Assembly (NCBI RefSeq): GCF_026241135.1
Contig: NZ_JAPFGA010000003.1
Coordinates: forward strand, 62,001 to 126,000
Reading direction: 5' to 3'
DNA: 64,000 nt
From: Galbibacter kalidii
GTDB taxonomy: Bacteria; Bacteroidota; Bacteroidia; Flavobacteriales; Flavobacteriaceae
How positions within the stretch are numbered: position 1 is the stretch's first letter; the number at the start of each line of letters is the position of its first letter. Positions 30,063 through 44,305 of this stretch are shown piece after piece. Position numbers and translations under genes: made by a program. The notes under the pieces are model-generated. The model was given only the letters and a program-made list of their open reading frames with translations, searched no databases and was not told the origin of the DNA.

Positions 30063-30116
30063 ATTTACGTATATGTAAATACGTATTTTTACTTATATTT
30101 GATTTCAAATTACGTA
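30063..30116 (+). promoter_or_regulatory. nirB promoter with three TACGTA sites
   Basis: The -7 box TATATTTG is at 30094-30101. No TTTG exists at -33; instead the inverted repeat ATTTAC-N6-GTAAAT (30063-30080) covers that position. TACGTA occurs at 30066, 30080 and 30111. The same hexamer recurs in the leaders of the response regulator, narK and moeA. A promoter lacking -33 but carrying a palindrome there suggests activator dependence. Confidence 0.6.
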
Positions 30117-30119
30117 GAT

Positions 30120-32627
30120 ATGAAGAAGATTATAGTAATTGGTAACGGGATGGTTGGTTATAAGTTCTGTCAAAAAATAACAGCTAAAGCCAACAGGAAT
30201 GATTTTGAAATACTGGTATTTGGTGAAGAGCCAAGACCGGCATATGACAGGGTACACCTCAGCGAGTACTTTGGAGAAAAAACAGCCAATGAGCTCATGA
30301 TGGCACCGGCTGAATGGTATGAGGAAAACAATATTGAATTACACACTTCTTCTCTTGTTTCAAAAATTGACACACACCACAAAACCATAACTACTTATAA
30401 AAATGAAAACTTTACGTATGACTACCTAGTAATCGCGACCGGGTCTTCTCCTTTTGTCCCACCAATTCAGGGTTCAGACAAATCCGGGGTTTTTGTGTAT
30501 CGCACCTTAGAGGATTTGGACGCCATGAAAAGCTATGCTGCCAAACTGAAGACTAAAGGAAGAAACAAAGCCGCGGTCCTAGGTGGTGGTCTGCTCGGAT
30601 TGGAAGCGGCAAATGCAGCAAAAGAACTGGGAATGGAAACTCATGTAGTAGAGTTTGCGCCACGTTTGATGCCGAGACAATTGGATCTTCCGGCCAGTAA
30701 ATTACTTACTGAAAAAATCGAAGATTTAGGCATTAAAATTCATTTAGAAAAAGCAACTACCGAAATAAAAGGTGAAGATGGTATCGAAAAAATGGAGTTT
30801 AACGACGACACCCATCTTAATGTAGATATGCTTATTATTTCTGCAGGTATTCGTCCGCGTGATGAACTTGCAAGGGATGCAGGTATCAAAGTTGGTGAAC
30901 GTGGTGGTATTTGGGTCGACAACAAAATGCAAACCTCAGCAGAAGATGTGTATGCCATTGGAGAAGTTGCATTATACAACAGCATGATTTACGGTTTGGT
31001 AGCTCCTGGTTACGATATGGCCGATGTGGCTGTAGAACAAATCACCGGAGGTGACGAAGTTATGGAGTCTTCAATAGATATGTCTACGCAATTGAAATTG
31101 ATAGGGACAGAAGTAGCCAGCTTTGGCGATCCGTTTATCGAAGATAATGATGTTTCTGTTATCGCTTTTGAAAACAAGCATAAAGGTATATACAAACGAA
31201 TTAATGTTACCAAAGATGGAACAAAACTCCTTGGAGGTATTCTCGTAGGGGATTCTTCCGACTATAACACCTTGTTCCAACTCTATATCAACGAAATGAA
31301 ACTCCCCGAAAACCCCGAAGATCTTATTTTGGGAGCTCGTGGTGGAGAAAGTGATGCTATGGGCAGTGTTCTCGATTTTCCGGATTCGGCACAGATATGC
31401 TCTTGCGAAAGTGTTTCCAAAGGCGATATCTGCGGACTGATCGAAAATGGAACCTGCTCTTCAATGTCCGGAGTTGTGAAAAACACCAAAGCGACAACCG
31501 GATGCGGTGGGTGTAAACCTATGGTAACCGACTTGGTAAACGAAACGCTTAAATCCTTAGGACAGGAAGTAAAAGAAACGATTTGCGAGCATTTCGAGTA
31601 CAACCGTCAGGAACTATATGACTTAATCAAGATAAACAAGGTCGAGACTTATGACGAAGCGTTGGACACCCTCGGGAAAGGTGACGGATGTGAGGTTTGT
31701 AAACCGGCCTTGGCTTCTTTGTTTTCCAGTATCTATATGGAAACGGCCAACAAACAACCTGTTATTCAGGATTCAAACGACCGCTTTTTGGCAAACATTC
31801 AACGTAACGGGACCTATTCTATAGTTCCAAGGGTAGCCGGTGGGGAAATCACTCCTGAAAAATTGATGGTCCTTGGGAAAGTAGCTCAAAAATATGACCT
31901 CTATACAAAAATCACAGGTGGACAACGTATTGATCTCTTCGGAGCAGAATTACACCAACTTCCACTTATTTGGAAAGAACTTATTGATGCCGGATTTGAA
32001 AGTGGACATGCCTATGGAAAATCCCTGCGAACGGTAAAAAGTTGTGTAGGATCGACTTGGTGCCGCTACGGAATGCACGAAAGTGTTTCTTTTGCTATCG
32101 AGATAGAAAACCGTTATCGCGGACTCCGATCTCCTCACAAACTAAAAGGAGGCGTTTCAGGATGTATCAGGGAATGTGCCGAAGCCAGAGGTAAAGATTT
32201 CGGAATTATTGCCGTAGAAGGCGGTTGGAACCTTTATGTATGTGGAAACGGCGGTGCTACACCAAAACATGCCATCTTGCTCGCTGAACAATTGGATAGT
32301 GAAACCTGTATAAAATACTTAGATCGATTCTTAATGTACTACATACGTACCGCTCCTCCCCTCACCCGTACAGCTCCTTGGTTGGAAAAGCTCGATGGAG
32401 GGATCGAATATCTGAAAAAAGTGATTGTTGAAGATTCTTTAGGAATCGCAGAAGATCTGGAAAAAGAAATGCAAGGTTTAGTCAATAAATATGAATGTGA
32501 GTGGAAACAAGCTATCGAAGATCCTGAAATGATGAAACGTTTCACACACTTCGTAAACTCTGATGACACTGATGAAACTCTTGAGTTTGTTTCGCTAAGG
32601 AACCAAAAAATGCCAAGACCTTGGTAA
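30120..32627 (+). CDS. nirB: Assimilatory nitrite reductase large subunit
   Basis: The ATG at 30120 (MKKIIVIGNGMVGYKF) starts directly at the FAD Rossmann motif; a TTG at 30099 would add 7 residues and is less likely. The 835-residue enzyme reduces nitrite to ammonium with NADH. In order it has a pyridine nucleotide-disulfide oxidoreductase module (residues 1-~300), a BFD-like [2Fe-2S] region (CSCESVSKGDICG near 426, CGGC near 460), a second BFD-like segment (GCEVCKPALA), and a sulfite/nitrite reductase module. The siroheme/Fe4S4 cysteines are CVGSTWC near 641 and GGVSGCIREC near 677-686. It leads an operon with nirD. Confidence 0.96.
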   Translation: MKKIIVIGNGMVGYKFCQKITAKANRNDFEILVFGEEPRPAYDRVHLSEYFGEKTANELMMAPAEWYEENNIELHTSSLVSKIDTHHKTITTYKNENFTYDYLVIATGSSPFVPPIQGSDKSGVFVYRTLEDLDAMKSYAAKLKTKGRNKAAVLGGGLLGLEAANAAKELGMETHVVEFAPRLMPRQLDLPASKLLTEKIEDLGIKIHLEKATTEIKGEDGIEKMEFNDDTHLNVDMLIISAGIRPRDELARDAGIKVGERGGIWVDNKMQTSAEDVYAIGEVALYNSMIYGLVAPGYDMADVAVEQITGGDEVMESSIDMSTQLKLIGTEVASFGDPFIEDNDVSVIAFENKHKGIYKRINVTKDGTKLLGGILVGDSSDYNTLFQLYINEMKLPENPEDLILGARGGESDAMGSVLDFPDSAQICSCESVSKGDICGLIENGTCSSMSGVVKNTKATTGCGGCKPMVTDLVNETLKSLGQEVKETICEHFEYNRQELYDLIKINKVETYDEALDTLGKGDGCEVCKPALASLFSSIYMETANKQPVIQDSNDRFLANIQRNGTYSIVPRVAGGEITPEKLMVLGKVAQKYDLYTKITGGQRIDLFGAELHQLPLIWKELIDAGFESGHAYGKSLRTVKSCVGSTWCRYGMHESVSFAIEIENRYRGLRSPHKLKGGVSGCIRECAEARGKDFGIIAVEGGWNLYVCGNGGATPKHAILLAEQLDSETCIKYLDRFLMYYIRTAPPLTRTAPWLEKLDGGIEYLKKVIVEDSLGIAEDLEKEMQGLVNKYECEWKQAIEDPEMMKRFTHFVNSDDTDETLEFVSLRNQKMPRPW

Positions 32628-32774: not shown

Positions 32775-33152
32775 ATGGAACACATACTTCAACAATATCA
32801 AACGGTAGCTCAAGCCAAAGTAACAAACTGGTTTAACGTAGGGAATGTCAACAATTTTCCTGAAAACGGTGGCGCTTGTATTAAATACAAATCCAAACAG
32901 ATTGCGGTGTATAACTTTACCCGAAAATCACAATGGTATGCGTGCCAGAACTTGTGTCCGCATAAAATGGAAATGGTACTTTCAAGAGGTATGATTGGTG
33001 ATGCCAGCGGTATCCCAAAAGTTGCCTGTCCGCTACACAAAAAGACTTTTTCACTAGAAAACGGGGGAAACCTCAACGGTGAAGATTATAAAATTGCTAC
33101 TTATCCTGTTAAAATTGAAAATGAAAATGTGTATATTGGCTTTACTGATTAA
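32775..33152 (+). CDS. nirD: Nitrite reductase small subunit (Rieske-like)
   Basis: This 125-residue protein supports NirB in NADH-dependent nitrite reduction. It has the Rieske fold with both ligand pairs in place (NLCPHKMEM near residues 56-64, VACPLHKKTF near 82-91), so it should carry a [2Fe-2S] cluster; many NirD proteins lack these residues. It is separated from nirB by a 147-base gap filled by a palindromic repeat, and the DUF4202 gene follows 11 bases later. Confidence 0.93.
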   Translation: MEHILQQYQTVAQAKVTNWFNVGNVNNFPENGGACIKYKSKQIAVYNFTRKSQWYACQNLCPHKMEMVLSRGMIGDASGIPKVACPLHKKTFSLENGGNLNGEDYKIATYPVKIENENVYIGFTD

Positions 33153-33163
33153 TTAGTAAAGTT

Positions 33164-33748
33164 ATGAGTTTATCCATTTTTGAAAAAGCAATTGAAAAAA
33201 TAGACACTGAAAATGCCAAAGATCCCAACAAAGAAAGTTTTCAAGGGGAGGAATATTCAAAAGAATTGCTTTACTCACAGCGAATGACAGAAACGTTGCT
33301 AGATTTCTATCCGCAAGCTCCTCAGGAATTGCAAATTGCAGCAAGAGCACAACACATTGAGCGATGGAAAATAGACCGGGAAACCTATCCTATGGATCGT
33401 GTGGGTTATCTGAAATGGCGTGAAGATCTAAAAAAAATGCACGCCAAATTAACCGCCGAAATATTGACGGAGGTTGGTTATGATTCTGATTTTATCGATC
33501 GGGTTTCCTTTTTGATCCAGAAAAAAAAGATGAAAAAAGACGAAGACTCCCAAACCTTGGAAGATGTGGTCTGCCTTGTTTTTCTTCGTTATTATTTTGA
33601 AGACTTCGCTGCCAAACACCCCGATGATAAGATCATTGATATTCTCCAAAAAACTTGGCGAAAAATGTCTGAAAAAGGGCAAGAAGCTGCTTTAAAACTC
33701 CCATTGGACGAAAAAAGCACCTCCTTGATTCAAAGAGCGTTGGCATAA
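33164..33748 (+). CDS. DUF4202 family protein
   Basis: This 194-residue, mostly helical protein matches what I know of DUF4202: an N-terminal SIFEKAIEKIDTENAKDPN, then ARAQHIERWKIDRETYPMDRVGYLKWR near residues 62-88, with conserved His, Trp and Arg. The AQHIxRW segment and later VCLVFLRYYFEDFAAKH resemble metal-dependent HD-like helices, but no function is established. It lies 11 bases after nirD and 4 bases before the sensor kinase, so it belongs firmly to the nitrite reduction operon and may help nitrogen sensing or cofactor supply. Confidence 0.85.
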   Translation: MSLSIFEKAIEKIDTENAKDPNKESFQGEEYSKELLYSQRMTETLLDFYPQAPQELQIAARAQHIERWKIDRETYPMDRVGYLKWREDLKKMHAKLTAEILTEVGYDSDFIDRVSFLIQKKKMKKDEDSQTLEDVVCLVFLRYYFEDFAAKHPDDKIIDILQKTWRKMSEKGQEAALKLPLDEKSTSLIQRALA

Positions 33749-33752
33749 ACAC

Positions 33753-35558
33753 ATGAGCAACAAAGCTTCAACTTTAGATCAAAACACTTTTAAAAGACTC
33801 AGGCAACTCTACGTTATTGCACTAAGTCTCATTGCTATTTCGGTTATCGTTAGTCAGATTTTGGTACAACGTTTTTTAATCAAACAGCAAGACGATGCCA
33901 AAGTAGTCAATATCGCAGGAAGGCAGCGTATGCTTAGTCAAAAACTGACCAAAGAGGTCTTGCTGCTTTCAACAGGAAAAAATTCACTCTCCAATCAACA
34001 ACTAACCGATACTATCGAAAACACTCTTGGTTTATGGGCAACGTCCCACAAAGCCTTGCAAAACGATAGTATTAACATTGAAGCCAATAATTCGGATGCT
34101 ATAAAACAAATGTTTGGTGAACTCCAACCGGCTTTCGATCAAATACAAACTTCCGTAAAGCGGATTCTTCAAAAAGCCCGGACAGCCGAAGAGAGCATCA
34201 ACATTCATAGTGAAGTTGATGAACTCCTCAATAATGAGCAGCAATTCCTCACTACTATGGATCGTATTGTAAATCAGTATGACCTTGAGGCGACCGAAAA
34301 AGTGGAAAAACTCAGAAGGTTGGAACTTATTTTATTCATCATTGCCCTCGGAATTTTATTGGCGGAATTCCTATTCATCTTCCTTCCGGCTGCAAGAAGT
34401 ACCAAAGAAGTCATAGGAAAGTTGTTGGTATCGGAAAAAAATGCCAAAGAAATGGCTTACAACGCCGATATGATGAGCATGGAAAAAGAAAGGTCAGTCA
34501 AACAACTTAAAGCGCTGAGTCTTGCCATGGAACAAACGCTGTTGTATGCCCGTATTGATCCTGAAGGACATTTGGTGCATTTGGGGAATAAGTTTTCTTC
34601 ATTTTTCAATCATCGGAATTTCGATTCAAACCTCCGTTTTTCAGAAATTATTTCCACGGAACAGGATGAAAGGGAAACCATTGAAAAAATCATTGCCGAC
34701 AATCAAAGTACTGGTTGGCAAGGTGAAGTAAAAGGAACTACGGGGCAGAATACTCCTGTTTGGCTTGAAATGTCGGTTATTCCATATCATTCCGGGGAGA
34801 AAAAAGAAGAATTGCTCATTATCTGTTTTGATATCACAAAACGAAAATTGGCACAACTGGAGGTCGATCGGCTAACCAGGGAGCATTTTGAAGCAAAAAT
34901 GGATCAGCAGAAAACCATTTCAGCAAAAATCATAGAAAACCAAGAGCAAGAACAAAACCGAATTGCCAAGGATATTCACGACGGCATCGGACAGATGTTG
35001 ACCGGATTGAAATTCAATATTGAAAGTATCGATATTGACGACAAAGAAAAAGCTTCTGAAAAAATAGAACACCTGAAAGAACTCACCACCAATATTATTA
35101 AAGGAGTGCGAACTGCCACTTTCAACCTTGCTCCGCCTGAATTGACCGACCACGGGGTTGTTTCAGCCCTTGTAAAACTCACACAGGAACTAGCTAAGTT
35201 TACCGGAAAGAACATCACGCTAATCAACAAAACCGATTTTAATAGCCGCTTGGATTCCTTGATTGAAATCAACATCTACAGAATTGTCCAAGAAGCTGTA
35301 AACAATGCCATTAAATATGCTGAATCTTCTCATATTGTCGTAAGTATTTCACACAGCAAAGAGATCTTGAGCATCATCATTGATGATAACGGAAAAGGTT
35401 TTGATATTGAGAAAAAGAAACCCCGCAGTAAAGGAGAAGGCGGTATGGGACTCACTTTTATGAAAGAACGTATAAAGTATATCAACGGACGCCTGTTTTT
35501 AAATTCAAACCCCGGAGAAGGTACCCGTATCACACTCAATATTCCTATTAAAGAATAA
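33753..35558 (+). CDS. NarX-like sensor histidine kinase (PilJ-type sensor, PAS, HisKA_3)
   Basis: This 601-residue inner-membrane kinase has its first span at residues ~17-39. A PilJ/NarX-type periplasmic helix bundle follows, opening with VVNIAGRQRMLSQKLT, the equivalent of the nitrate-sensing P-box of NarX. The second span is at ~188-212. A PAS domain (~255-370) follows, then the HisKA_3 helix with the phosphoacceptor His409 in IAKDIHDGIGQML, and an HATPase domain (NAIKYAE, DDNGKGFD). Lying in the nirBD operon and followed by a NarL-type regulator, it is probably the nitrate or nitrite sensor. Confidence 0.9.
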   Translation: MSNKASTLDQNTFKRLRQLYVIALSLIAISVIVSQILVQRFLIKQQDDAKVVNIAGRQRMLSQKLTKEVLLLSTGKNSLSNQQLTDTIENTLGLWATSHKALQNDSINIEANNSDAIKQMFGELQPAFDQIQTSVKRILQKARTAEESINIHSEVDELLNNEQQFLTTMDRIVNQYDLEATEKVEKLRRLELILFIIALGILLAEFLFIFLPAARSTKEVIGKLLVSEKNAKEMAYNADMMSMEKERSVKQLKALSLAMEQTLLYARIDPEGHLVHLGNKFSSFFNHRNFDSNLRFSEIISTEQDERETIEKIIADNQSTGWQGEVKGTTGQNTPVWLEMSVIPYHSGEKKEELLIICFDITKRKLAQLEVDRLTREHFEAKMDQQKTISAKIIENQEQEQNRIAKDIHDGIGQMLTGLKFNIESIDIDDKEKASEKIEHLKELTTNIIKGVRTATFNLAPPELTDHGVVSALVKLTQELAKFTGKNITLINKTDFNSRLDSLIEINIYRIVQEAVNNAIKYAESSHIVVSISHSKEILSIIIDDNGKGFDIEKKKPRSKGEGGMGLTFMKERIKYINGRLFLNSNPGEGTRITLNIPIKE

Positions 35559-35564
35559 CACATA

Positions 35565-36053
35565 ATGATGAAAAACAGTTTTTCTGCTAAAATCGGAATC
35601 ATAGGGATAAATCCGTTTGTTTTTATTCCCCAAGCGGTACTGGAAAAGGTTTTTAAGGATGCAGGTAAAAGTAAAGGCAGTATTCCGGTAAGAATGAAGA
35701 TTGACGATCATGAATTCACTCAAACCTTAGTTAGATATAGTGGCCATTGGCGCTTGTACCTAAACACCCCGATGAGGAAAAAAGCCGGAAAAGAAGTTGG
35801 GGACACTGCAGTATTTGAAATTGCTTTTGATCCTGTTGAACGCATTACCCCTATACATCCTAAACTTGCTTTAGCTTTGGATAAAAATCAAAAAGCAAAA
35901 GCCGTTTTTGATCAATTAAATCCGTCGCTACAAAAAGAGATCGTTAAATATATTTCCTTTCTTAAAACAGAAAAAAGTATTGACAAGAATGTCATCAGGG
36001 CCATCAACTTCCTTTTAGGCAAAGAGCGTTTTATTGGTAGAGACAAGCCATAA
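35565..36053 (+). CDS. YdeI/OmdA-like protein with DUF1905 domain
   Basis: The N-terminal ~90 residues of this 162-residue protein look like DUF1905 (PVRMKIDDHEFTQTLVRYSGHWRLYLN, then KAGKEVGDTAVFEI). The C-terminal helices (AKAVFDQLNPSLQKEIVKYISFLKTEKSIDKNVIRAIN) match the OmdA/YdeI region linked to bacteriocin protection. It sits 6 bases after the sensor kinase and just before the response regulator promoter, splitting the two-component pair. No link between this family and nitrate is known to me. Confidence 0.75.
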   Translation: MMKNSFSAKIGIIGINPFVFIPQAVLEKVFKDAGKSKGSIPVRMKIDDHEFTQTLVRYSGHWRLYLNTPMRKKAGKEVGDTAVFEIAFDPVERITPIHPKLALALDKNQKAKAVFDQLNPSLQKEIVKYISFLKTEKSIDKNVIRAINFLLGKERFIGRDKP

Positions 36054-36080
36054 TAACTCATATTTTTTAAAACGAACACA

Positions 36081-36104
36081 TTTACGTAAAATTCCTTACT
36101 TTAG
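36081..36104 (+). promoter_or_regulatory. Promoter region of the NarL-like regulator with TACGTA palindrome
   Basis: The perfect palindrome TTTACGTAAA (36081-36090) lies a few bases before TACTTTAG (36097-36104), one mismatch from the -7 consensus. It falls in the 73-base gap before the response regulator gene. It gives the regulator its own promoter and suggests autoregulation through the same motif seen at nirB, narK and moeA. Confidence 0.55.
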
Positions 36105-36126
36105 TACTTAGATATTCAAATTCCAA

Positions 36127-36783
36127 ATGAACACGATCAACATCATATTAGCAGACGACCATGTTTTGGTTAGGGACGGAGTCAAATCTTTGTTGGAAAA
36201 CGACAAGTCCATCAAAGTTATAGACGAAGCCTCAGACGGAAAAGAGGCTGTAGAAGTAGTTGCCAAAAGCAAACCCGATATCCTTGTTGTTGATATAAGA
36301 ATGCCCGAAAAAAACGGTATTGAAGTAGTAAAAGAAATCAAAAAAACAACTCCGGAAGTCAAAGCACTCGTACTTTCCATGCACGATTCAGAAGAATATG
36401 TCATTCAATCTATTCAAGCAGGAGCCGATGGTTATTTATTGAAAGGTTCGAGTAAAGAAGAATTCCTTAAAGCACTACACACCATTGCCGACGGAGGTAA
36501 ATATTTTACAGGCGACATCTCTTCTATCATCATCAATAATTTTGTTGATGGGAAACCTGCCAAGCCACAAAAGAAGGAACCCATTAATGATTTCCACCTC
36601 ACCAAACGAGAAAAGCAAATATTATCACACGTCTTGAAAGGGCAAAGCAATAAAGAAATTGCAGAAGAATTAAAGATCAGTAAACGAACTGCCGAAGTAC
36701 ACCGTTTTAACCTGATGAAGAAGTTGGGAGTGAAAAATCAAATAGAATTGGCCAACAAAGCTAGAACTCACAATCTGGTATAA
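36127..36783 (+). CDS. NarL/FixJ-type response regulator
   Basis: This 218-residue regulator has a receiver domain with acidic pocket Asp10-Asp11, the phosphoacceptor Asp56 in ILVVDIRMPEKNG, Thr/Ser and Lys positions in ALVLSMHD and YLLKGSS, and a LuxR-type helix-turn-helix at residues ~150-212 (LTKREKQILSHVLKGQSNKEIAEELKISKRTAEVHR). It pairs naturally with the NarX-like kinase two genes upstream. Its likely targets are the TACGTA-bearing promoters of nirB, narK, moeA and its own gene, because NarL-type heptamers also begin TAC; this link is inference. Confidence 0.93.
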   Translation: MNTINIILADDHVLVRDGVKSLLENDKSIKVIDEASDGKEAVEVVAKSKPDILVVDIRMPEKNGIEVVKEIKKTTPEVKALVLSMHDSEEYVIQSIQAGADGYLLKGSSKEEFLKALHTIADGGKYFTGDISSIIINNFVDGKPAKPQKKEPINDFHLTKREKQILSHVLKGQSNKEIAEELKISKRTAEVHRFNLMKKLGVKNQIELANKARTHNLV

Positions 36784-36975: not shown

Positions 36976-38400
36976 ATGCAAACAACTCCAGAAACTAAAG
37001 CAACTAAATTAAATTTAAAGGCTATAAAAAGCACTCCTATAAGAACGTTTTGGATCTCTTCCTTTGCCTTTTTCTTGTGTTTTTTCGCATGGTTTGGCAT
37101 TGTGCCTTTCATGCCTGATGTTATAAAAGATTTAGGGTTGACCCCCAGCCAAAAATGGAATGCGGTTATTCTAGCAGTATCGGGGACTGTATTTGCGCGC
37201 TTACTCATAGGTAAATTGTGTGACAAATACGGTCCACGGCTGTGTTACACATGGCTGTTAACCCTCGGAGCCATTCCGGTTATTTTAAGCGGATTGGTAC
37301 AAACACCGCTTCAATTTCTTATTTGCAGGCTATTTATTGGTTTTATTGGTGCCTCTTTTGTGATCACACAGGTACACACCTCCTTAATGTTTGCTCCCAA
37401 TGTTGTGGGCACAGCCAATGCTACATCAGCAGGTTGGGGTAACTTGGGTGGCGGTGCCAACCGATTGGGAATGCCACTTATCGCTGCTGCCGTAATTAGT
37501 TTTGGAGTAGCAGAAAGTGAAGCTTGGCGCTATGCCATGGTGATTGCCGGGATTGTATGTTTTATTATGGGGATTGTCTATTATTTCTTTACCCAAGACA
37601 CCCCTGAAGGAAACTTCAAAAACTTGAAAGAAAAGGGAAAAAAGGTTCCGAATCTCAAAAAAGACCAAGTTGGTTTTTCAGAAGCCATTAAAGATTATAG
37701 AGTGTGGATATTGTTTATCGTCTATGCCGCTTGTTTTGGCATTGAACTGACCGTATACGGTACTATGGACGATTATCTTCAAAACACTTTTCAGTTGGAG
37801 CGGGTTACCGCCGGAAATATTGTCCTCTCTTTTGCGCTGATGAATATTTTTGCGCGTACCCTGGGTGGGTTTTTTGGTGATAAATCCGGAAAACTCAAAG
37901 GGCTACGTGGCCGGGTTATATTTCTCGCTGCTATTTTAACCCTTGAAGGAATCATTTTATCGACTTTTTCGATGATGACAAGTTTGACACTGGGTGTCAT
38001 ATTTCTCATTTTATTTAGTTTGAGCGTTCAAATGGCTGAAGGTGCTACTTTTTCGGTAGTCCCTTTTATCAATAAAAAGGCGATTGGTTCTATTTCGGGT
38101 ATTGTAGGCGCCGGTGGTAATGTCGGTGCATTTTTGGCCGCTTTACTTTTAAAGTCCAAATCGGCCGTAGCGGAAAAAACAGCTATTGTAGAAAGTCAAG
38201 GTTTAGGGGAGACTGCAGTAAAAGTTGCACAGTCTGAAGCTGCTGCAAATGCTGTATCCAGTGGATATTTGGTCATTGGATTCTTTGTAGTATTTACCGG
38301 ACTAATTGCTTTAGCCATTCGCTTTTCGATTGAAGATGAAAAAAATGCCGAGAGAGAACTTAAAGAAATCCGAGGAGAATTTGTTACCGTCAATAGTTAG
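36976..38400 (+). CDS. narK: Major facilitator nitrate/nitrite transporter
   Basis: This 474-residue MFS protein has 12 predicted spans. It carries the NNP-family nitrate signatures GWGNLGGGANRLGMPLI near residues 155-171 and GIVGAGGNVGAFLAALL near 375-391, and an arginine in ARLLIGKLCDKYGPRLCY. It brings nitrate into the cytoplasm. The next gene, nitrate reductase, begins 45 bases later with no terminator, and the rubredoxin gene follows, so narK leads a nitrate uptake and reduction operon. The leader carries a TACGTA palindrome. Confidence 0.93.
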   Translation: MQTTPETKATKLNLKAIKSTPIRTFWISSFAFFLCFFAWFGIVPFMPDVIKDLGLTPSQKWNAVILAVSGTVFARLLIGKLCDKYGPRLCYTWLLTLGAIPVILSGLVQTPLQFLICRLFIGFIGASFVITQVHTSLMFAPNVVGTANATSAGWGNLGGGANRLGMPLIAAAVISFGVAESEAWRYAMVIAGIVCFIMGIVYYFFTQDTPEGNFKNLKEKGKKVPNLKKDQVGFSEAIKDYRVWILFIVYAACFGIELTVYGTMDDYLQNTFQLERVTAGNIVLSFALMNIFARTLGGFFGDKSGKLKGLRGRVIFLAAILTLEGIILSTFSMMTSLTLGVIFLILFSLSVQMAEGATFSVVPFINKKAIGSISGIVGAGGNVGAFLAALLLKSKSAVAEKTAIVESQGLGETAVKVAQSEAAANAVSSGYLVIGFFVVFTGLIALAIRFSIEDEKNAERELKEIRGEFVTVNS

Positions 38401-38445: not shown

Positions 38446-41400
38446 GTGTTGAAAAAAGAAGTAAAAACCACTTGTTCATATTGTGGTGTAGGCTGTGGGA
38501 TCGTTGTAAAAAAGGATGCCGAAAATAAAGTTTATGTGGAAGGAGATAAAGACCATCCAGTAAACAAGGGAATGCTTTGTTCCAAAGGAATGAACCTGCA
38601 TTATGTGGCCAACGATACTTCTGACAGAATTTTATATCCCGAGATGCGATGGAGCAAGTCTCACCCTCGGGAACGGGTTTCTTGGGATGATGCCATGGAA
38701 AGGGCCGCTTCAGTTTTCAAATCGATTATAAAAAAATACGGTCCGGACAGTGTTGGCTTTTATGTTTCCGGGCAGTGTTTAACAGAAGAATATTACATCG
38801 CCAACAAGCTTACAAAGGGTTTTATAGGTACCAATAATATCGATACCAATTCCCGTCTCTGTATGAGTTCGGCTGTTGTAGGCTATAAAAAAACATTTGG
38901 GGAAGACTCTGTTCCCATCGCCTATGATGATATTGAATTGGCAGATTGTTTTTTGATCACAGGAGCAAATCCAGCATGGTGCCACCCTATTCTCTTCCGA
39001 AGGATTGAAAAACACAAAGAAGAAAACCCCGACGTAAAAATTGTCGTGGTCGATCCCCGCAAAACAGATTCAGCCAATTTTGCTGACCTTCACTTACAGA
39101 TTATTCCGGGTACCGATGTCATTCTTTACAATGCCATCGGACGACGATTGATAGAACGCGGATTGATAGATTCCGATTTTATCAAACAACACACAGAGAA
39201 TTACAAAAAATATAAGGAGCAAATCCTATCAACTCCTATTAAAAAAGCGGCAAAAATTTGTGGTGTTTCAGAAAAAGACATCAAGAAAGCTGCAGATATG
39301 ATCGGCTTGTCCAAAGGTTTTATCAGTATGTGGGCCATGGGGCTTAACCAAAGTGTGATGGGGACTGATAAAAATTTTGCACTACTGAACCTTTCACTTA
39401 TCACAGGTCAAGTGGGGAAACCCGGTTCCGGACCTTTTTCCCTTACCGGACAGCCCAACGCTATGGGCGGACGTGAAGTCGGTGGAATGGCCAACCTTTT
39501 GGCGGTACACAAAAATCTTTTAAACGAGGAACACCGAAAAGAAGTCGCACAGTTTTGGGGTGTTAACAGTATTTCAGGAAAACCTGGTTATACAGCCACC
39601 GAAATGTTTGACGCTTTGGAAAAAGGGAAATTAAAAGCAGTTTGGATCGTCTGTACAAATCCGCTTGTGAGTATGCCCAATGTTAGAAAAGCAGAAAAAG
39701 CATTAAAGAACGCTAAATTTGTTGTCGTTCAGGATATCTCCCATAAATCAGATACCACCAAAGTAGCAGACCTTCTTCTACCGGCAGCCGGTTGGTTGGA
39801 AAAAGAAGGGACCATGACCAATTCTGAACGTCGGATCTCATACTTGCCAAAAGTGCTGAATGCTCCGGGTGAAGCAAGAGCCGATGTGGAGATTTTATGT
39901 GACTTTGCCGATAAGATGGGATATCGAGGTTTCAATTACAACTCTACTGAAGAGATCTACAGGGAATATTGCGATATGACCAAAGGAACCAATATCGATA
40001 TTTCTTTTTTGAATTACGACCGACTGAAGAACGAGGGCACCATTCAATGGCCTGTCAATGAATACAGACATCAGGGAACTCCCCGCCTATTTGAAGACCG
40101 CAAATTTTATACGCCTTCACAAAAAGCAATTTTCAATGTGCCCTACAGCACAGAGAACGCTTCCATACAACCGGATAGTGAATATCCTTTGGTTTTAACA
40201 ACGGGAAGAGTACGCGATCAATGGCATACCATGACCAAAACAGGAAAGGTATCGAGATTGCATACCCACTACCCTACACCTGTTCTGGAGATCAATCCGG
40301 TAGATGCATACATCCATCATATAAAAGACGGAGATGTCACAGAGATAAAAAGCCGGAATGGTGAGGTGAGACTTCGGGCCAAAGTAACCAAAAATGTACG
40401 CGAAGGTGTCATTTTTATTCCAATGCATTGGGGAAAAGTGTTGAACAGCGATTTGAACCGTGTCAATAACCTTACCAACAATATTGTTGATCCACAATCG
40501 AAAGAGCCTGATTTTAAGTACACAGCCGTATCGGTTGCCAAATACAAGAAAGAAAGCGAGAAAATCCTTGTTGTCGGAGCTGGCGCGGCAGCATTTAGGT
40601 TTGTTCAAAATTATAGGGATCACGATTCAGAAGATGAAATCCATGTGTTCTCTAAAGAAGCGCATCCATTTTACAATCGGGTGTTGCTCCCTGAATATGT
40701 AACCGAAGAACTCTCTTGGGATCAGCTACAAAAAATAAAGAAAAAAGAACTCGAAAAACTCAAAACCGATATACACCCGGAGACGTTCATCGTCGAAATC
40801 GACAGGAAAAATAAAACCATAACAGACAATCATAACGATATCCATTCTTATGACAAACTAATCCTGGCTACGGGAAGCCGGGCTTTTGTTCCAAAGGACG
40901 TACAACTGAATCTTCCGGGTCGATTTACCTTACGAAGTAAAAATGATGCCGATCGATTTAAAAAGCATTTAGACAATACCAATCTGCCTACAGAACAACA
41001 GCATGTTGCCATTGTTGGTGGTGGACTCCTAGGATTGGAATTGGCAGCAGCATTAAAACATCAAGGGGTAAAAATCACGATCATACAACGTTCTTCCCGC
41101 TTGATGGAGCGCCAGCTCGATATCACTTCAAGTAAGCTTCTGGCGATGAACGTTCAGGAAAGAGGAGTTCAGATCTATTTTGATAATGAAGTCAGTACCG
41201 TTTTTGACGATGAAGAAAACAACGACCTCTCCATTACCCTAAAAAGTGGTAAAATTATCAATGCTCATGCCGTTGTATATGCTATAGGAACACAACCTAA
41301 CATAGAGATAGCTAAACAATGTGGCTTGAAATACGGAAGAGGCGTTAAAGTAAATCAACACTTACAAACTTCCGATCCCTCTATTTTTGCTATTGGTGAG

Positions 41401-41967
41401 ATTGCGCAGTTCAATAACCGTTTATTCGGAATTACTTCCGCAGCTGAAGAACAGGCCGATATCCTTGCTCATTTCATTGCCGGGGATATCAGTAGTTCAT
41501 ACAAAGGTTCTGTTTTGATGAATATTTTGAAGTTCAACGACCTTGACCTGTGTAGCATTGGTGATATTGAGTTTCCTGAAAATGACAACAGTTATGAAGA
41601 AATCATTTTTACTGATGTAAGCAAAAGGTACTACAAAAAGTGTATCGTCAAAGACGATCTTCTGGTTGGGGCTATTTTGATGGGTGACAAGAATGAATTT
41701 GCCGAATTTAAAGAAATGATCGAGAGCAAAATGGAGCTCTCTGACAAGAGGGAAACGCTTCTCCGCGGAACATCCAATTCAAAACCGGTCTTGGGAGAAC
41801 TCGTTTGTTCGTGTAGCCGCGTAGGCGTAGGAAATTTAGAAGAAGCCATTCAACAAGGATGTACGGATTTTACCGAATTGTGTAAACAAACCGGTGCCGG
41901 ACTCGGGTGTGGAAGTTGTAAAACCGAAGTAAGGGAGGTCCTGAAAAGCCAAGAAGTATTGGCGTAA
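38446..41967 (+). CDS. nasA: Assimilatory nitrate reductase fused to FAD/NAD reductase and BFD domains
   Basis: This 1173-residue cytoplasmic enzyme starts at GTG. Residues 1-~690 are the molybdopterin catalytic part, with the Fe4S4 cysteines Cys10, Cys13, Cys17 and Cys45 (CSYCGVGC, MLCSKG), NTNSRLCMSSAVVGYK, TGQPNAMGGREVGGMANLL and a C-terminal dinucleotide-binding barrel (LTTGRVRDQWHTMT). Residues ~706-1110 are a NasB/NirB-like FAD module (ILVVGAGAAAF, then VAIVGGGLLGLELAAAL near 855). Residues ~1119-1165 are a BFD-type [2Fe-2S] domain (CSCSRVG, GCGSC). The fusion supplies electrons to the molybdenum site from one chain; NAD(P)H is the inferred donor. Confidence 0.93.
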   Translation: MLKKEVKTTCSYCGVGCGIVVKKDAENKVYVEGDKDHPVNKGMLCSKGMNLHYVANDTSDRILYPEMRWSKSHPRERVSWDDAMERAASVFKSIIKKYGPDSVGFYVSGQCLTEEYYIANKLTKGFIGTNNIDTNSRLCMSSAVVGYKKTFGEDSVPIAYDDIELADCFLITGANPAWCHPILFRRIEKHKEENPDVKIVVVDPRKTDSANFADLHLQIIPGTDVILYNAIGRRLIERGLIDSDFIKQHTENYKKYKEQILSTPIKKAAKICGVSEKDIKKAADMIGLSKGFISMWAMGLNQSVMGTDKNFALLNLSLITGQVGKPGSGPFSLTGQPNAMGGREVGGMANLLAVHKNLLNEEHRKEVAQFWGVNSISGKPGYTATEMFDALEKGKLKAVWIVCTNPLVSMPNVRKAEKALKNAKFVVVQDISHKSDTTKVADLLLPAAGWLEKEGTMTNSERRISYLPKVLNAPGEARADVEILCDFADKMGYRGFNYNSTEEIYREYCDMTKGTNIDISFLNYDRLKNEGTIQWPVNEYRHQGTPRLFEDRKFYTPSQKAIFNVPYSTENASIQPDSEYPLVLTTGRVRDQWHTMTKTGKVSRLHTHYPTPVLEINPVDAYIHHIKDGDVTEIKSRNGEVRLRAKVTKNVREGVIFIPMHWGKVLNSDLNRVNNLTNNIVDPQSKEPDFKYTAVSVAKYKKESEKILVVGAGAAAFRFVQNYRDHDSEDEIHVFSKEAHPFYNRVLLPEYVTEELSWDQLQKIKKKELEKLKTDIHPETFIVEIDRKNKTITDNHNDIHSYDKLILATGSRAFVPKDVQLNLPGRFTLRSKNDADRFKKHLDNTNLPTEQQHVAIVGGGLLGLELAAALKHQGVKITIIQRSSRLMERQLDITSSKLLAMNVQERGVQIYFDNEVSTVFDDEENNDLSITLKSGKIINAHAVVYAIGTQPNIEIAKQCGLKYGRGVKVNQHLQTSDPSIFAIGEIAQFNNRLFGITSAAEEQADILAHFIAGDISSSYKGSVLMNILKFNDLDLCSIGDIEFPENDNSYEEIIFTDVSKRYYKKCIVKDDLLVGAILMGDKNEFAEFKEMIESKMELSDKRETLLRGTSNSKPVLGELVCSCSRVGVGNLEEAIQQGCTDFTELCKQTGAGLGCGSCKTEVREVLKSQEVLA

Positions 41968-41977
41968 AAATTAAGGT

Positions 41978-43420
41978 ATGAAAAAGGAATTATACAGATT
42001 GATCGTTAAAGGCGGAGTACTTTCTCCGGGAGAATTAAAATCCATCGCTGAAGCTGCTGAAAGTTCCGGTTTAAAAACCATTTCGTTCGGTTCGCGTCAA
42101 GACATCCTTTTTTCAAAAGAGGTAGAAAAGGAAAAACTGTCCAAATTCAACGACCTTGAATGGATAGCCCCCAATGAAACAGGAACCGATAATATTGTTT
42201 GCTCTTATGTTGCTGCTGACATTTTCCCGAACACTTCATGGCTTACTGGCGATCGATATTTGTATATTCTAGAACAATTCAGGCACCACCCAGTTTTAAA
42301 AATCAATATTTCGGATCCCAAACAGCGTTTAGTACCACTTTTTACCGGTCATTTGAATTTTATCGCCTCCACACATGAGGATTACTGGTATCTGTATGTG
42401 CGATTGCCGTATTGGGAAAAAACCATCATGTATCCGGCTTTGATATACAGTTGGGACATTGCAGATGTATCAATTGCTATCGAAAATCTCTTGCAAGAGG
42501 AACCCGAAACCATTGAAATGGTTTTCGAATTGATCAACGACGCCATCGACACTAACAACAGGACAGTCGATACCCCTTTAGATGTTCCTTTTCATCCCTT
42601 TCCTTATTATGAAGGAATGAACAAAATAGGGCTCGATAAATATTGGTTGGGACTCTATTGGAGAAACAATGAATATGACCTCGATTTCCTAAAAGCCATG
42701 TGCGACCTCTGCGCCGAATGTAAAATAGGGAAGGTGTGTATCACACCGTGGAAATCGTTTATTATCAAAGGAATTCAGGCTGAATTCAAGCTGAAATGGG
42801 AAAAATTTCTGGGAAAAAGAGGAATAAATGTCCGCCACTCTATGTTGGAGTTGAACTGGCACTTGCCGGTAGACAACAAAGATGCTTTGAAACTCAAGCG
42901 GTATTTGGTCGCCAATTTTGATCAAAATGATATCAGTACCTACGGACTCACTTTCGGAATAACCGACTACACCCGACAAGCTTATTATTTCACCTCCATT
43001 GTTATTGAAAAAAACAAACAACCCGAAGTTGCAGGTGATTTCACCATACGCGACACCTACAATTTGTTGTATGCAAAGGATTTTGACCCGAATACCATAG
43101 AATATATCACCCATGTTCAGGATGTTGATAAGGTAGAACTTCCGGGGCTGTTGATGGAGCTCAGTAAGATGTACTTCAACTCCTTAGGCGAAGAAACAAA
43201 AAAAGAGGAAAAAGAAACCAAGAAGAAAAAAGAAATAGAGGTCGATGTATACCAGTGTACCGAATGTATGACCATCTACGACCCTTCTTATGGTGACCAA
43301 ACCCAAAACATTGCTCCCAATACCCCTTTTGAAAGCCTCCCGGAAGATTATCACTGCTCCTTATGTGAAGCTTCCAAAGAACACTTAAAGCATATGACGT
43401 TGGTCAAAGAGGTGAAATAG
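41978..43420 (+). CDS. Rubredoxin protein on a sulfite/nitrite-reductase-like scaffold without cluster cysteines
   Basis: This 480-residue protein lies 10 bases after nasA. Its N-terminus (LYRLIVKGGVLSPGELKSIA, then SFGSRQDI) parallels NirB YSIVPRVAGGEITPEKL and GGQRIDL, the ferredoxin-like half domain of siroheme reductases; a later ITPWKSFIIKGI is the second such half. Where NirB has CVGSTWC and GCIREC this protein has no matching cysteines, so it should lack siroheme/Fe4S4. The last ~60 residues are a rubredoxin (YQCTECMTIYDP near 426, YHCSLCEAS near 458). It is probably an electron carrier or partner of NasA or NirB; exact role unknown. Confidence 0.8.
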   Translation: MKKELYRLIVKGGVLSPGELKSIAEAAESSGLKTISFGSRQDILFSKEVEKEKLSKFNDLEWIAPNETGTDNIVCSYVAADIFPNTSWLTGDRYLYILEQFRHHPVLKINISDPKQRLVPLFTGHLNFIASTHEDYWYLYVRLPYWEKTIMYPALIYSWDIADVSIAIENLLQEEPETIEMVFELINDAIDTNNRTVDTPLDVPFHPFPYYEGMNKIGLDKYWLGLYWRNNEYDLDFLKAMCDLCAECKIGKVCITPWKSFIIKGIQAEFKLKWEKFLGKRGINVRHSMLELNWHLPVDNKDALKLKRYLVANFDQNDISTYGLTFGITDYTRQAYYFTSIVIEKNKQPEVAGDFTIRDTYNLLYAKDFDPNTIEYITHVQDVDKVELPGLLMELSKMYFNSLGEETKKEEKETKKKKEIEVDVYQCTECMTIYDPSYGDQTQNIAPNTPFESLPEDYHCSLCEASKEHLKHMTLVKEVK

Positions 43421-44305
43421 TTAATCATGCCTTTGCCCTCTAAAAATCTTAAACAGGTGTAAAACATGAGGGAAAATAGCATCCATGGATTCTTTTGCTC
43501 CATTGGTGGATCCCGGAAGTGCCAGCACTAAACAGTTTCCAATCGTTCCTGCAACACTACGCGAAAGCATCGCAAAAGGCACACGTTCTTGTCCGTAGCT
43601 ACGGATAGCCTCTTCTATTCCCGGAATTTCCCGTTCGAGTAATGGTCGGAGTGCTTCAGGGGTTACATCTCTTAGGGACAAACCGGTTCCACCTGTATAA
43701 ATAAGTAAATGATGGTCTTTTGACAATTCAACTGCTTTTTCCGCAATTATTGATTTTTGATCAGGAATGACCTCATAATGATCAGCCTTAACATCACAAC
43801 GTTTTAACTTTTCAATAATCGCTTTCCCGGCCGCGTCTTCCTTCTTCCCTGCAGAAATCGAATCGGAACAAACCACTACAGCAGCAGTCAAATTGGAAGT
43901 GTACATCCGCTTAAAGCTTTTCTGTCCGCCTTTGTTAGTCACAATCCTTACAGCACCCATCTCGGCAATAACATCCAATTTCTTCAGCTTATTGTAAACG
44001 GTTAGTCCGGCTACCGATGCTCCGTACATGGCTTCTACGTTCAAATCTGTTTTATGAATGGCTTTTGCCGTAACCTTGAACGTTAAACCATTTCCTTTCT
44101 GTTCACTATCAACAGCGATATGATCGATCAAAGACGGATAGGCTCCGGGAATACTTGTCGACGCACTTTTCACTGCCAATTCAGCTGCATTTTTTGCAGA
44201 CTCCAAGAGTTCAACACTCAATGTAGAAACTGCTTTTTCACTTAACTTCAGGCTTATTTCCGCAATGGATGTCCGCGCTGTTTTTATATGATTTGATAAA
44301 TCCAT
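43421..44305 (-). CDS. MoaC/MoaB fusion with degenerate MoaC half
   Basis: This 294-residue fusion acts in molybdenum cofactor synthesis. Residues ~145-290 are an intact MoaB/MogA molybdopterin adenylyltransferase domain (VVCSDSISAGKKEDAAG, IYTGGTGLSLRDVTPEA, LPGSTNGAKE). Residues 1-~135 resemble MoaC, but E. coli His77 corresponds to Tyr (PGAYPSL), Asp128 to Asn (VYNKLKK), Glu112 is lost and Lys51 has no clear counterpart; Glu114 and Lys131 remain. That half may be inactive in cyclic pyranopterin synthesis. It is last in the moeA-moaE-moaCB run, and its stop abuts the convergent rubredoxin gene. Confidence 0.85.
   Translation of the reverse strand: MDLSNHIKTARTSIAEISLKLSEKAVSTLSVELLESAKNAAELAVKSASTSIPGAYPSLIDHIAVDSEQKGNGLTFKVTAKAIHKTDLNVEAMYGASVAGLTVYNKLKKLDVIAEMGAVRIVTNKGGQKSFKRMYTSNLTAAVVVCSDSISAGKKEDAAGKAIIEKLKRCDVKADHYEVIPDQKSIIAEKAVELSKDHHLLIYTGGTGLSLRDVTPEALRPLLEREIPGIEEAIRSYGQERVPFAMLSRSVAGTIGNCLVLALPGSTNGAKESMDAIFPHVLHLFKIFRGQRHD

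Follow-up and report, generated by a model that had tools for sequence, protein, structure and literature searches.

A predicted rubredoxin-bearing pseudo-siroheme reductase encoded beside the fused nitrate reductase NasA in Galbibacter kalidii and other Bacteroidota

What might a protein do that resembles a siroheme-dependent reductase stripped of its cluster ligands, ends in a rubredoxin domain, and is encoded immediately behind a nitrate reductase? One gene in the window analyzed here, a 64,000-nucleotide stretch of the Galbibacter kalidii genome (contig NZ_JAPFGA010000003.1), raises this question. The open reading frame (41978..43420, + strand) has an ATG start and encodes 480 aa with Pfam matches to NIR_SIR_ferr and Rubredoxin and the fold of NirA and the sulfite reductase hemoprotein (SiRHP, CysI); we refer to its product as the pseudo-reductase. 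Exactly 10 bases separate it from the stop of nasA (41967), as counted in the preliminary description of this DNA. Probably the pseudo-reductase is not an enzyme but a so far unnamed aid to nitrate use. It is absent from the nitrate assimilation schemes known to us. No paper on it was found in the literature searched, which left out most subscription papers and makes this a weak negative, and the same literature yielded nothing useful on SiRHP residues. PMC5264521 deals in part with Hydrogenophaga nasAB and norV.

The gene lies in a nir-nas cluster. Upstream on the same strand are nirB (30099..32627), encoding the large subunit of NADH-nitrite reductase with intact signature cysteines in domain and signature scans; nirD (32775..33152), a Rieske-type small subunit matching Rieske_2 and named by its place after nirB; genes for a DUF4202 protein, a PilJ-type histidine kinase, a DUF1905/OmdA protein and a LuxR-type response regulator; and a NarK-type nitrate/nitrite MFS transporter (36976..38400; MFS_1), whose Spirosoma counterpart in the same place is annotated as NarK family. 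Convergent genes lie downstream, namely moaCB and moaE, and the ORF beyond moaE was read as a putative moeA. The MoaC-MoaB fusion (43421-44305; 277.5 bits against a cut-off of 285) directly abuts the stop of the pseudo-reductase gene. The DUF4202 gene (33164-33748) also has counterparts near nas genes in Hymenobacter and at loci L113 and L115. Within 33753-36783, the PilJ/PAS kinase, which is NarQ-like (1.7e-22, far below the model cut-off), and the LuxR-type regulator suggest a nitrate-sensing two-component system for assimilation.

The immediate neighbor NasA (38446..41967, + strand; 1173 aa) is a fusion in which domain scans found, besides the nitrate reductase, an FAD module of NirB type along with Rubredoxin_C and a BFD [2Fe-2S] domain. 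The FAD module matched NorW (NADH:flavorubredoxin reductase) at 1.2e-51, which is below that model's cut-off, and matched the NirB model better (6.7e-98); Rubredoxin_C was found at 2e-23. NasA was present at 63 of the 64 loci scanned, with the BFD cysteines in 63/63 and the N-terminal 4Fe-4S motif in 59/63, and on these counts the idea that the pseudo-reductase compensates for a defective NasA was dropped. The four misses of the N-terminal pattern were L158 and three genes on short contigs that appear to be cut (L040, L041 and L043).

The domain composition of the pseudo-reductase was established by several profile methods. Pfam matched NIR_SIR_ferr in two stretches. The better one (residues 6-46, 2.1e-10) marks the first ferredoxin-like half domain (41993..42115), in which, by hhalign and column counts, R7 and R40-Q41 align to R83 and R117-Q118 of CysI. 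The second half domain comprises approximately residues 217-285 (42626..42832, approximate boundaries) and was assigned from the second Pfam stretch, hhalign and weak NCBIfam stretches to CobG and NirA at 217-285 and 222-285 (E 0.12 each). A second NIR_SIR-like repeat that lacks the siroheme/4Fe-4S cysteines follows at about residues 286-415 (42833..43222), as judged by alignment, signature scan and structure model. The NIR_SIR 4Fe-4S domain had no Pfam match up to E 1, and no NCBIfam model matched the body at E 0.001 in the four members scanned.

The sulfite-reductase-like scaffold proposed in the preliminary description held up in structure comparison. In the second structure model (alignment of 36 rows, mean pLDDT 77.4, pTM 0.64), residues 1-321 matched NirA (1zj8) with Z 20.2 over 281 residues at an rmsd of 3.2, the tobacco and spinach nitrite reductases with Z 18.5-19.0 (spinach 2akj, Z 18.8), and E. 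coli SiRHP (1aop) with Z 16.9. Foldseek, run on each of the two models, put the same siroheme enzymes at the top (best E 1.9e-11 and 5.8e-11), with poor full-length superposition (TM-scores of about 0.3-0.5, rmsd 12-15). The second repeat was poorly modelled, and pLDDT was below 50 at residues 286-293 and 316-326. An hhalign comparison with six pooled siroheme enzymes aligned residues 4-414 over 394 columns (Prob 96.4, E 1.2e-9), using a greedier alignment setting than the single-family profile comparisons. The latter were much weaker: E 0.0011 over 380 columns for four NirA, E 0.0015 over 277 columns for E. coli CysI, and E 0.008 over 60 columns for the genome's own CysI. Because these single-family scores are weak, the assignment to the two-repeat ferr-SIR-ferr-SIR fold of NirA and SiRHP rests mainly on the structure comparison for residues 1-321, and residues 322-415 are placed by profile alignment only.

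The more specific claim of a parallel with NirB over both ferredoxin-like halves proved weak. NirB aligned over 57 columns only (E 0.1) and, in the window, consists of one ferr and one SIR repeat joined to FAD and BFD modules, its cluster signature being intact; the true parallel is therefore the two-repeat NirA/SiRHP architecture, and NirB was dropped as the main relative. What the pseudo-reductase has in common with NirB is one NIR_SIR_ferr-type half domain and a gene cluster; the NirB set of FAD, BFD and a single ferr and SIR repeat was not found in it. From the two-repeat siroheme-4Fe-4S enzymes NirA (plant-type nitrite reductase) and SiRHP, whose fold it has over residues 1-321, it differs by the absence of all four cluster cysteines, 13-18% identity and the extra rubredoxin.

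The loss of the cluster site was followed across the family. The 123 loci gave 105 distinct sequences 380 aa or longer, and removal of 16 near-duplicates left 89 members at no more than 92% identity. The cluster signature (CX5C-X30-70-CX3C) was found in all seven reference enzymes (E. coli CysI, four NirA, the genome's own CysI and the NirB of the window) versus 0/89 family members. No CX3C occurred in the cores of 89/89 members, and CX5C occurred in 21/89 cores, always as CxxCxxC at 242-248. In the alignment, the first cluster ligand falls inside a loop deleted from the pseudo-reductase. These sequence comparisons show the siroheme-4Fe-4S site to be lost from a predicted two-repeat nitrite/sulfite-reductase fold.

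Some basic residues of the old pocket are retained. SiRHP has four basic residues, R83, R153, K215 and K217, which we take to be anion-binding. The equivalent of CysI R83 is R or K in 86/89 members, that of R117 is R in 89/89, that of K217 is K or R in 87/89 and that of K215 is K or R in 53/89. This partial retention, and the close tracking of NirB described below (79/80), would suit a protein that carries a tetrapyrrole or an anion, with a cluster-less pocket that still binds either nitrite or the siroheme to be inserted into NirB. We consider such a carrier unlikely: in 84/89 members the R153 position holds E, Q, P, N or D, the cluster ligands are gone, and to our knowledge NirB is filled in other bacteria without a carrier of this kind.

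The core nevertheless contains cysteines that had been overlooked when it was called cluster-free. A CxxC pair, C242/C245 (42701..42712), lies ahead of the conserved TPWK strand, in a helix spanning residues 235-247 in the model. It is nearly invariant in the family alignment (C242 in 86/89, C245 in 88/89), was present in 8/8 distant members aligned separately, and has no cysteine at the aligned place in E. coli CysI. Displaced but conserved cysteines forming the cluster elsewhere in the chain had been named as grounds for abandoning the cluster-free reading, and a conserved pair at a new site was indeed found. A 4Fe-4S cluster, however, needs more ligands than two invariant cysteines supply; the further candidates C248 (21/89) and C254 (38/89) are variable, and one cysteine of the pair is missing from four of the 89 members (C242 in three, C245 in one). 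A displaced 4Fe-4S cluster at this place is thus unlikely, and that the protein is still an enzyme, with such a cluster on C242/C245 and other residues, seems very improbable.

The rubredoxin domain (residues 425-468; 43250..43381) noted earlier at the C-terminus was confirmed by Pfam (PF00301, 1.3e-15, 57.5 bits against a cut-off of 23). Residues 422-473 of the model matched rubredoxin 1rdg with Z 10.0 at 44% identity. Its two CxxC knuckles (C427, C430, C460 and C463) would form an Fe(Cys)4 site. The four cysteines are present in 88/89 members; the spacing between the knuckles is 28-31 in 86/89, and in two members it is shortened to 8 and 15. The domain is absent from one member only, L098 of genome G368. 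That gene (locus L107) stands at a contig end, searches of the genome for NasA (limit 1e-120) and for NirB (limit 1e-60) gave no match, and the member may be a relict or the product of an assembly gap. Rubredoxin fusions are also known from flavorubredoxin and class III hybrid cluster protein (7e0l), in which the body is a flavodiiron or hybrid-cluster enzyme; in the pseudo-reductase it has a siroheme-reductase fold.

The distribution of the gene follows that of the fused NasA. Among 249 genomes of the same family, the pseudo-reductase gene was present in 60, as a single copy in each. NasA was detected at 1e-120 in 63 of the 249, and the fused form occurred in 60, exactly the 60 carriers. The distance from NasA residue 700 to the pseudo-reductase gene was 1419-1506 bases on the same strand in 60/60, leaving room for the rest of NasA only. 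A scan of public genomes that finds close relatives only gave homologues with 52-83% identity at 39 loci, including Joostella atrarenae and Galbibacter orientalis (83% identity), Salegentibacter, Maribacter, Flavicella and a Saprospiraceae MAG. Since 39 loci at this identity combine with NasA adjacency in 60/60, the pattern lies far beyond chance.

Wider draws gave a similar picture. A draw of 395 genomes across the phylum, in which fused NasA was defined as an open frame of at least 1169 aa, yielded 123 matching genomes. Full-length pseudo-reductase was found in 29/395, and the other 94/123 showed weak matches only (1e-11 to 6e-6), to the rubredoxin end among the matches listed. The gene was carried by 28 of 33 genomes with fused NasA; the five exceptions all belong to other classes, and none has NirB. 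In one further carrier, G368, the gene sits at the end of a contig and NasA gave no match. In 17 regions inspected, the gene lay directly 3' of NasA in 14 and behind one intervening ORF in L105 and L106, and L107 had no NasA. A class draw found it in 14/277 genomes, nine of which had already been met in the other draws.

On plasmids, the gene occurred in four of 72,556 records, the four Bacteroidota records with fused NasA at 99% coverage; carriers include Spirosoma, Hymenobacter and Persicobacter. NasA matched 310 plasmid records at 1e-100. Coverage of the fusion reached 80% or more in five, namely the four Bacteroidota carriers and a Nonomuraea plasmid whose NasA (30% identity, in two pieces) was not accompanied by the pseudo-reductase. 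In all, the 306 records with NasA-type matches outside the four carriers lacked it, and one of them has nirD beside NasA. Beyond the phylum, the searches comprised the close-relative scan and this limited plasmid set, and the Bacteroidota range holds for the data sampled.

NirB co-occurs almost as strictly. It was searched in 80 of 91 carriers from the three draws (nine carriers plus G051 and G165 were left out) and was found at full length in 79/80, G368 being the exception. It was found in 0/80 same-family non-carriers (limit 1e-100, no internal control) and in 0/78 other non-carriers (limit 1e-90; two carriers run as positive controls matched). These 158 non-carriers were hand-picked, not drawn, and among the 78 are the five genomes that have a fused NasA but no pseudo-reductase. 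Four of the five exceptional regions, all but L155, were read for NirA, and each has one with its signature intact in the vicinity of NasA. In L154, L156 and L157, ORFs near the fused NasA have in common a short N-terminal stretch of the type PF(S/T)xEQ...GFxAG; in L154 these are NirA, a flavodoxin and an FNR-type protein, the latter two identified by Pfam. The stretch would be an N-terminal tag common to separate partners of one pathway.

Across the Bacteroidia sampled, pseudo-reductase, fused NasA and NirB thus travel as a triad, and co-occurrence therefore does not decide between NasA and NirB as the partner. An adaptor that uses its pseudo-reductase body and rubredoxin to keep the two NADH enzymes in contact and to transfer electrons or nitrite would account for the NirB counts and for the five NirB-less fused-NasA genomes, which lack the pseudo-reductase and in four regions have an intact NirA near NasA instead. 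It is nonetheless rather unlikely. In G036, G153 and G429, the contig that carries NirB is not the one with NasA and the pseudo-reductase, which remain together (one ORF between in G429), no such protein accompanies the other NasA-type matches on 306 plasmid records, one with nirD by NasA, and lineage explains the exceptions equally, all five being from other classes. A stronger version, in which a Bacteroidota family of dead siroheme reductases is an obligate redox subunit coupling the NADH-nitrate reductase fusion to NirB through a rubredoxin relay, with possible handover of nitrite in the old pocket, is conceivable though doubtful.

We tentatively favor, at somewhat less than an even chance, a catalytically dead, dedicated, rubredoxin-bearing accessory subunit of the NADH-dependent nitrate reductase. 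The cluster-less fold would serve as a docking body and perform no siroheme chemistry. The tethered Fe(Cys)4 site, the sole redox centre still recognizable from the sequence, would dock at the NirB-type FAD/[2Fe-2S] module of NasA, whose FAD part may be related to rubredoxin reductases, and exchange single electrons there. Electron delivery inside NasA could thereby be tuned or stabilized, and electrons or nitrite might be passed on to NirB. This subunit reading is supported by the presence of the gene and fused NasA in the same 60/249 genomes, adjacent in 60/60, by the 28/33 fused-NasA genomes and the same four plasmid records that carry it, and by the lost signature (0/89), the retained knuckles (88/89), the fold match and the NorW and Rubredoxin_C matches of the FAD module. 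Against it, the electron chain in NasA is already whole, leaving no electron gap to fill; five fused-NasA genomes lack the protein, and one member has no rubredoxin and two have shortened knuckles. The argument from the FAD module is also not specific to NasA, as NirB is an FAD/Rubredoxin_C protein too and co-occurs almost as strictly. Given a chain that looks complete, we give equal weight to an obligatory relay and to a role in regulation, stabilization or bridging.

Strict pairing with NasA would likewise be expected of a chaperone that matures it by inserting the molybdenum cofactor or an iron-sulfur cluster. Dedicated chaperones are known for other molybdoenzymes, and moaCB and moaE lie next to the gene on the opposite strand. 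No chaperone appeared among the Pfam, NCBIfam and fold search matches, however, and five fused NasA manage without the protein; we regard this role as quite unlikely.

Because the gene is single-copy in 60/60 same-family carriers, a knock-out of the proposed accessory subunit would be simple to read. Two family members are named "rubredoxin" in RefSeq (Spirosoma oryzicola WP_232563077.1 and Hymenobacter volaticus WP_245126150.1). Both lie beside nitrate reductase in the same place as the Galbibacter gene, and the name, which describes the C-terminal domain only, hides the pairing with nitrate reductase from annotation. If the proposed role is true, the pseudo-reductase would be a further protein in the nitrate assimilation of many Bacteroidota, and a siroheme-reductase fold would have been reused without its cofactor.
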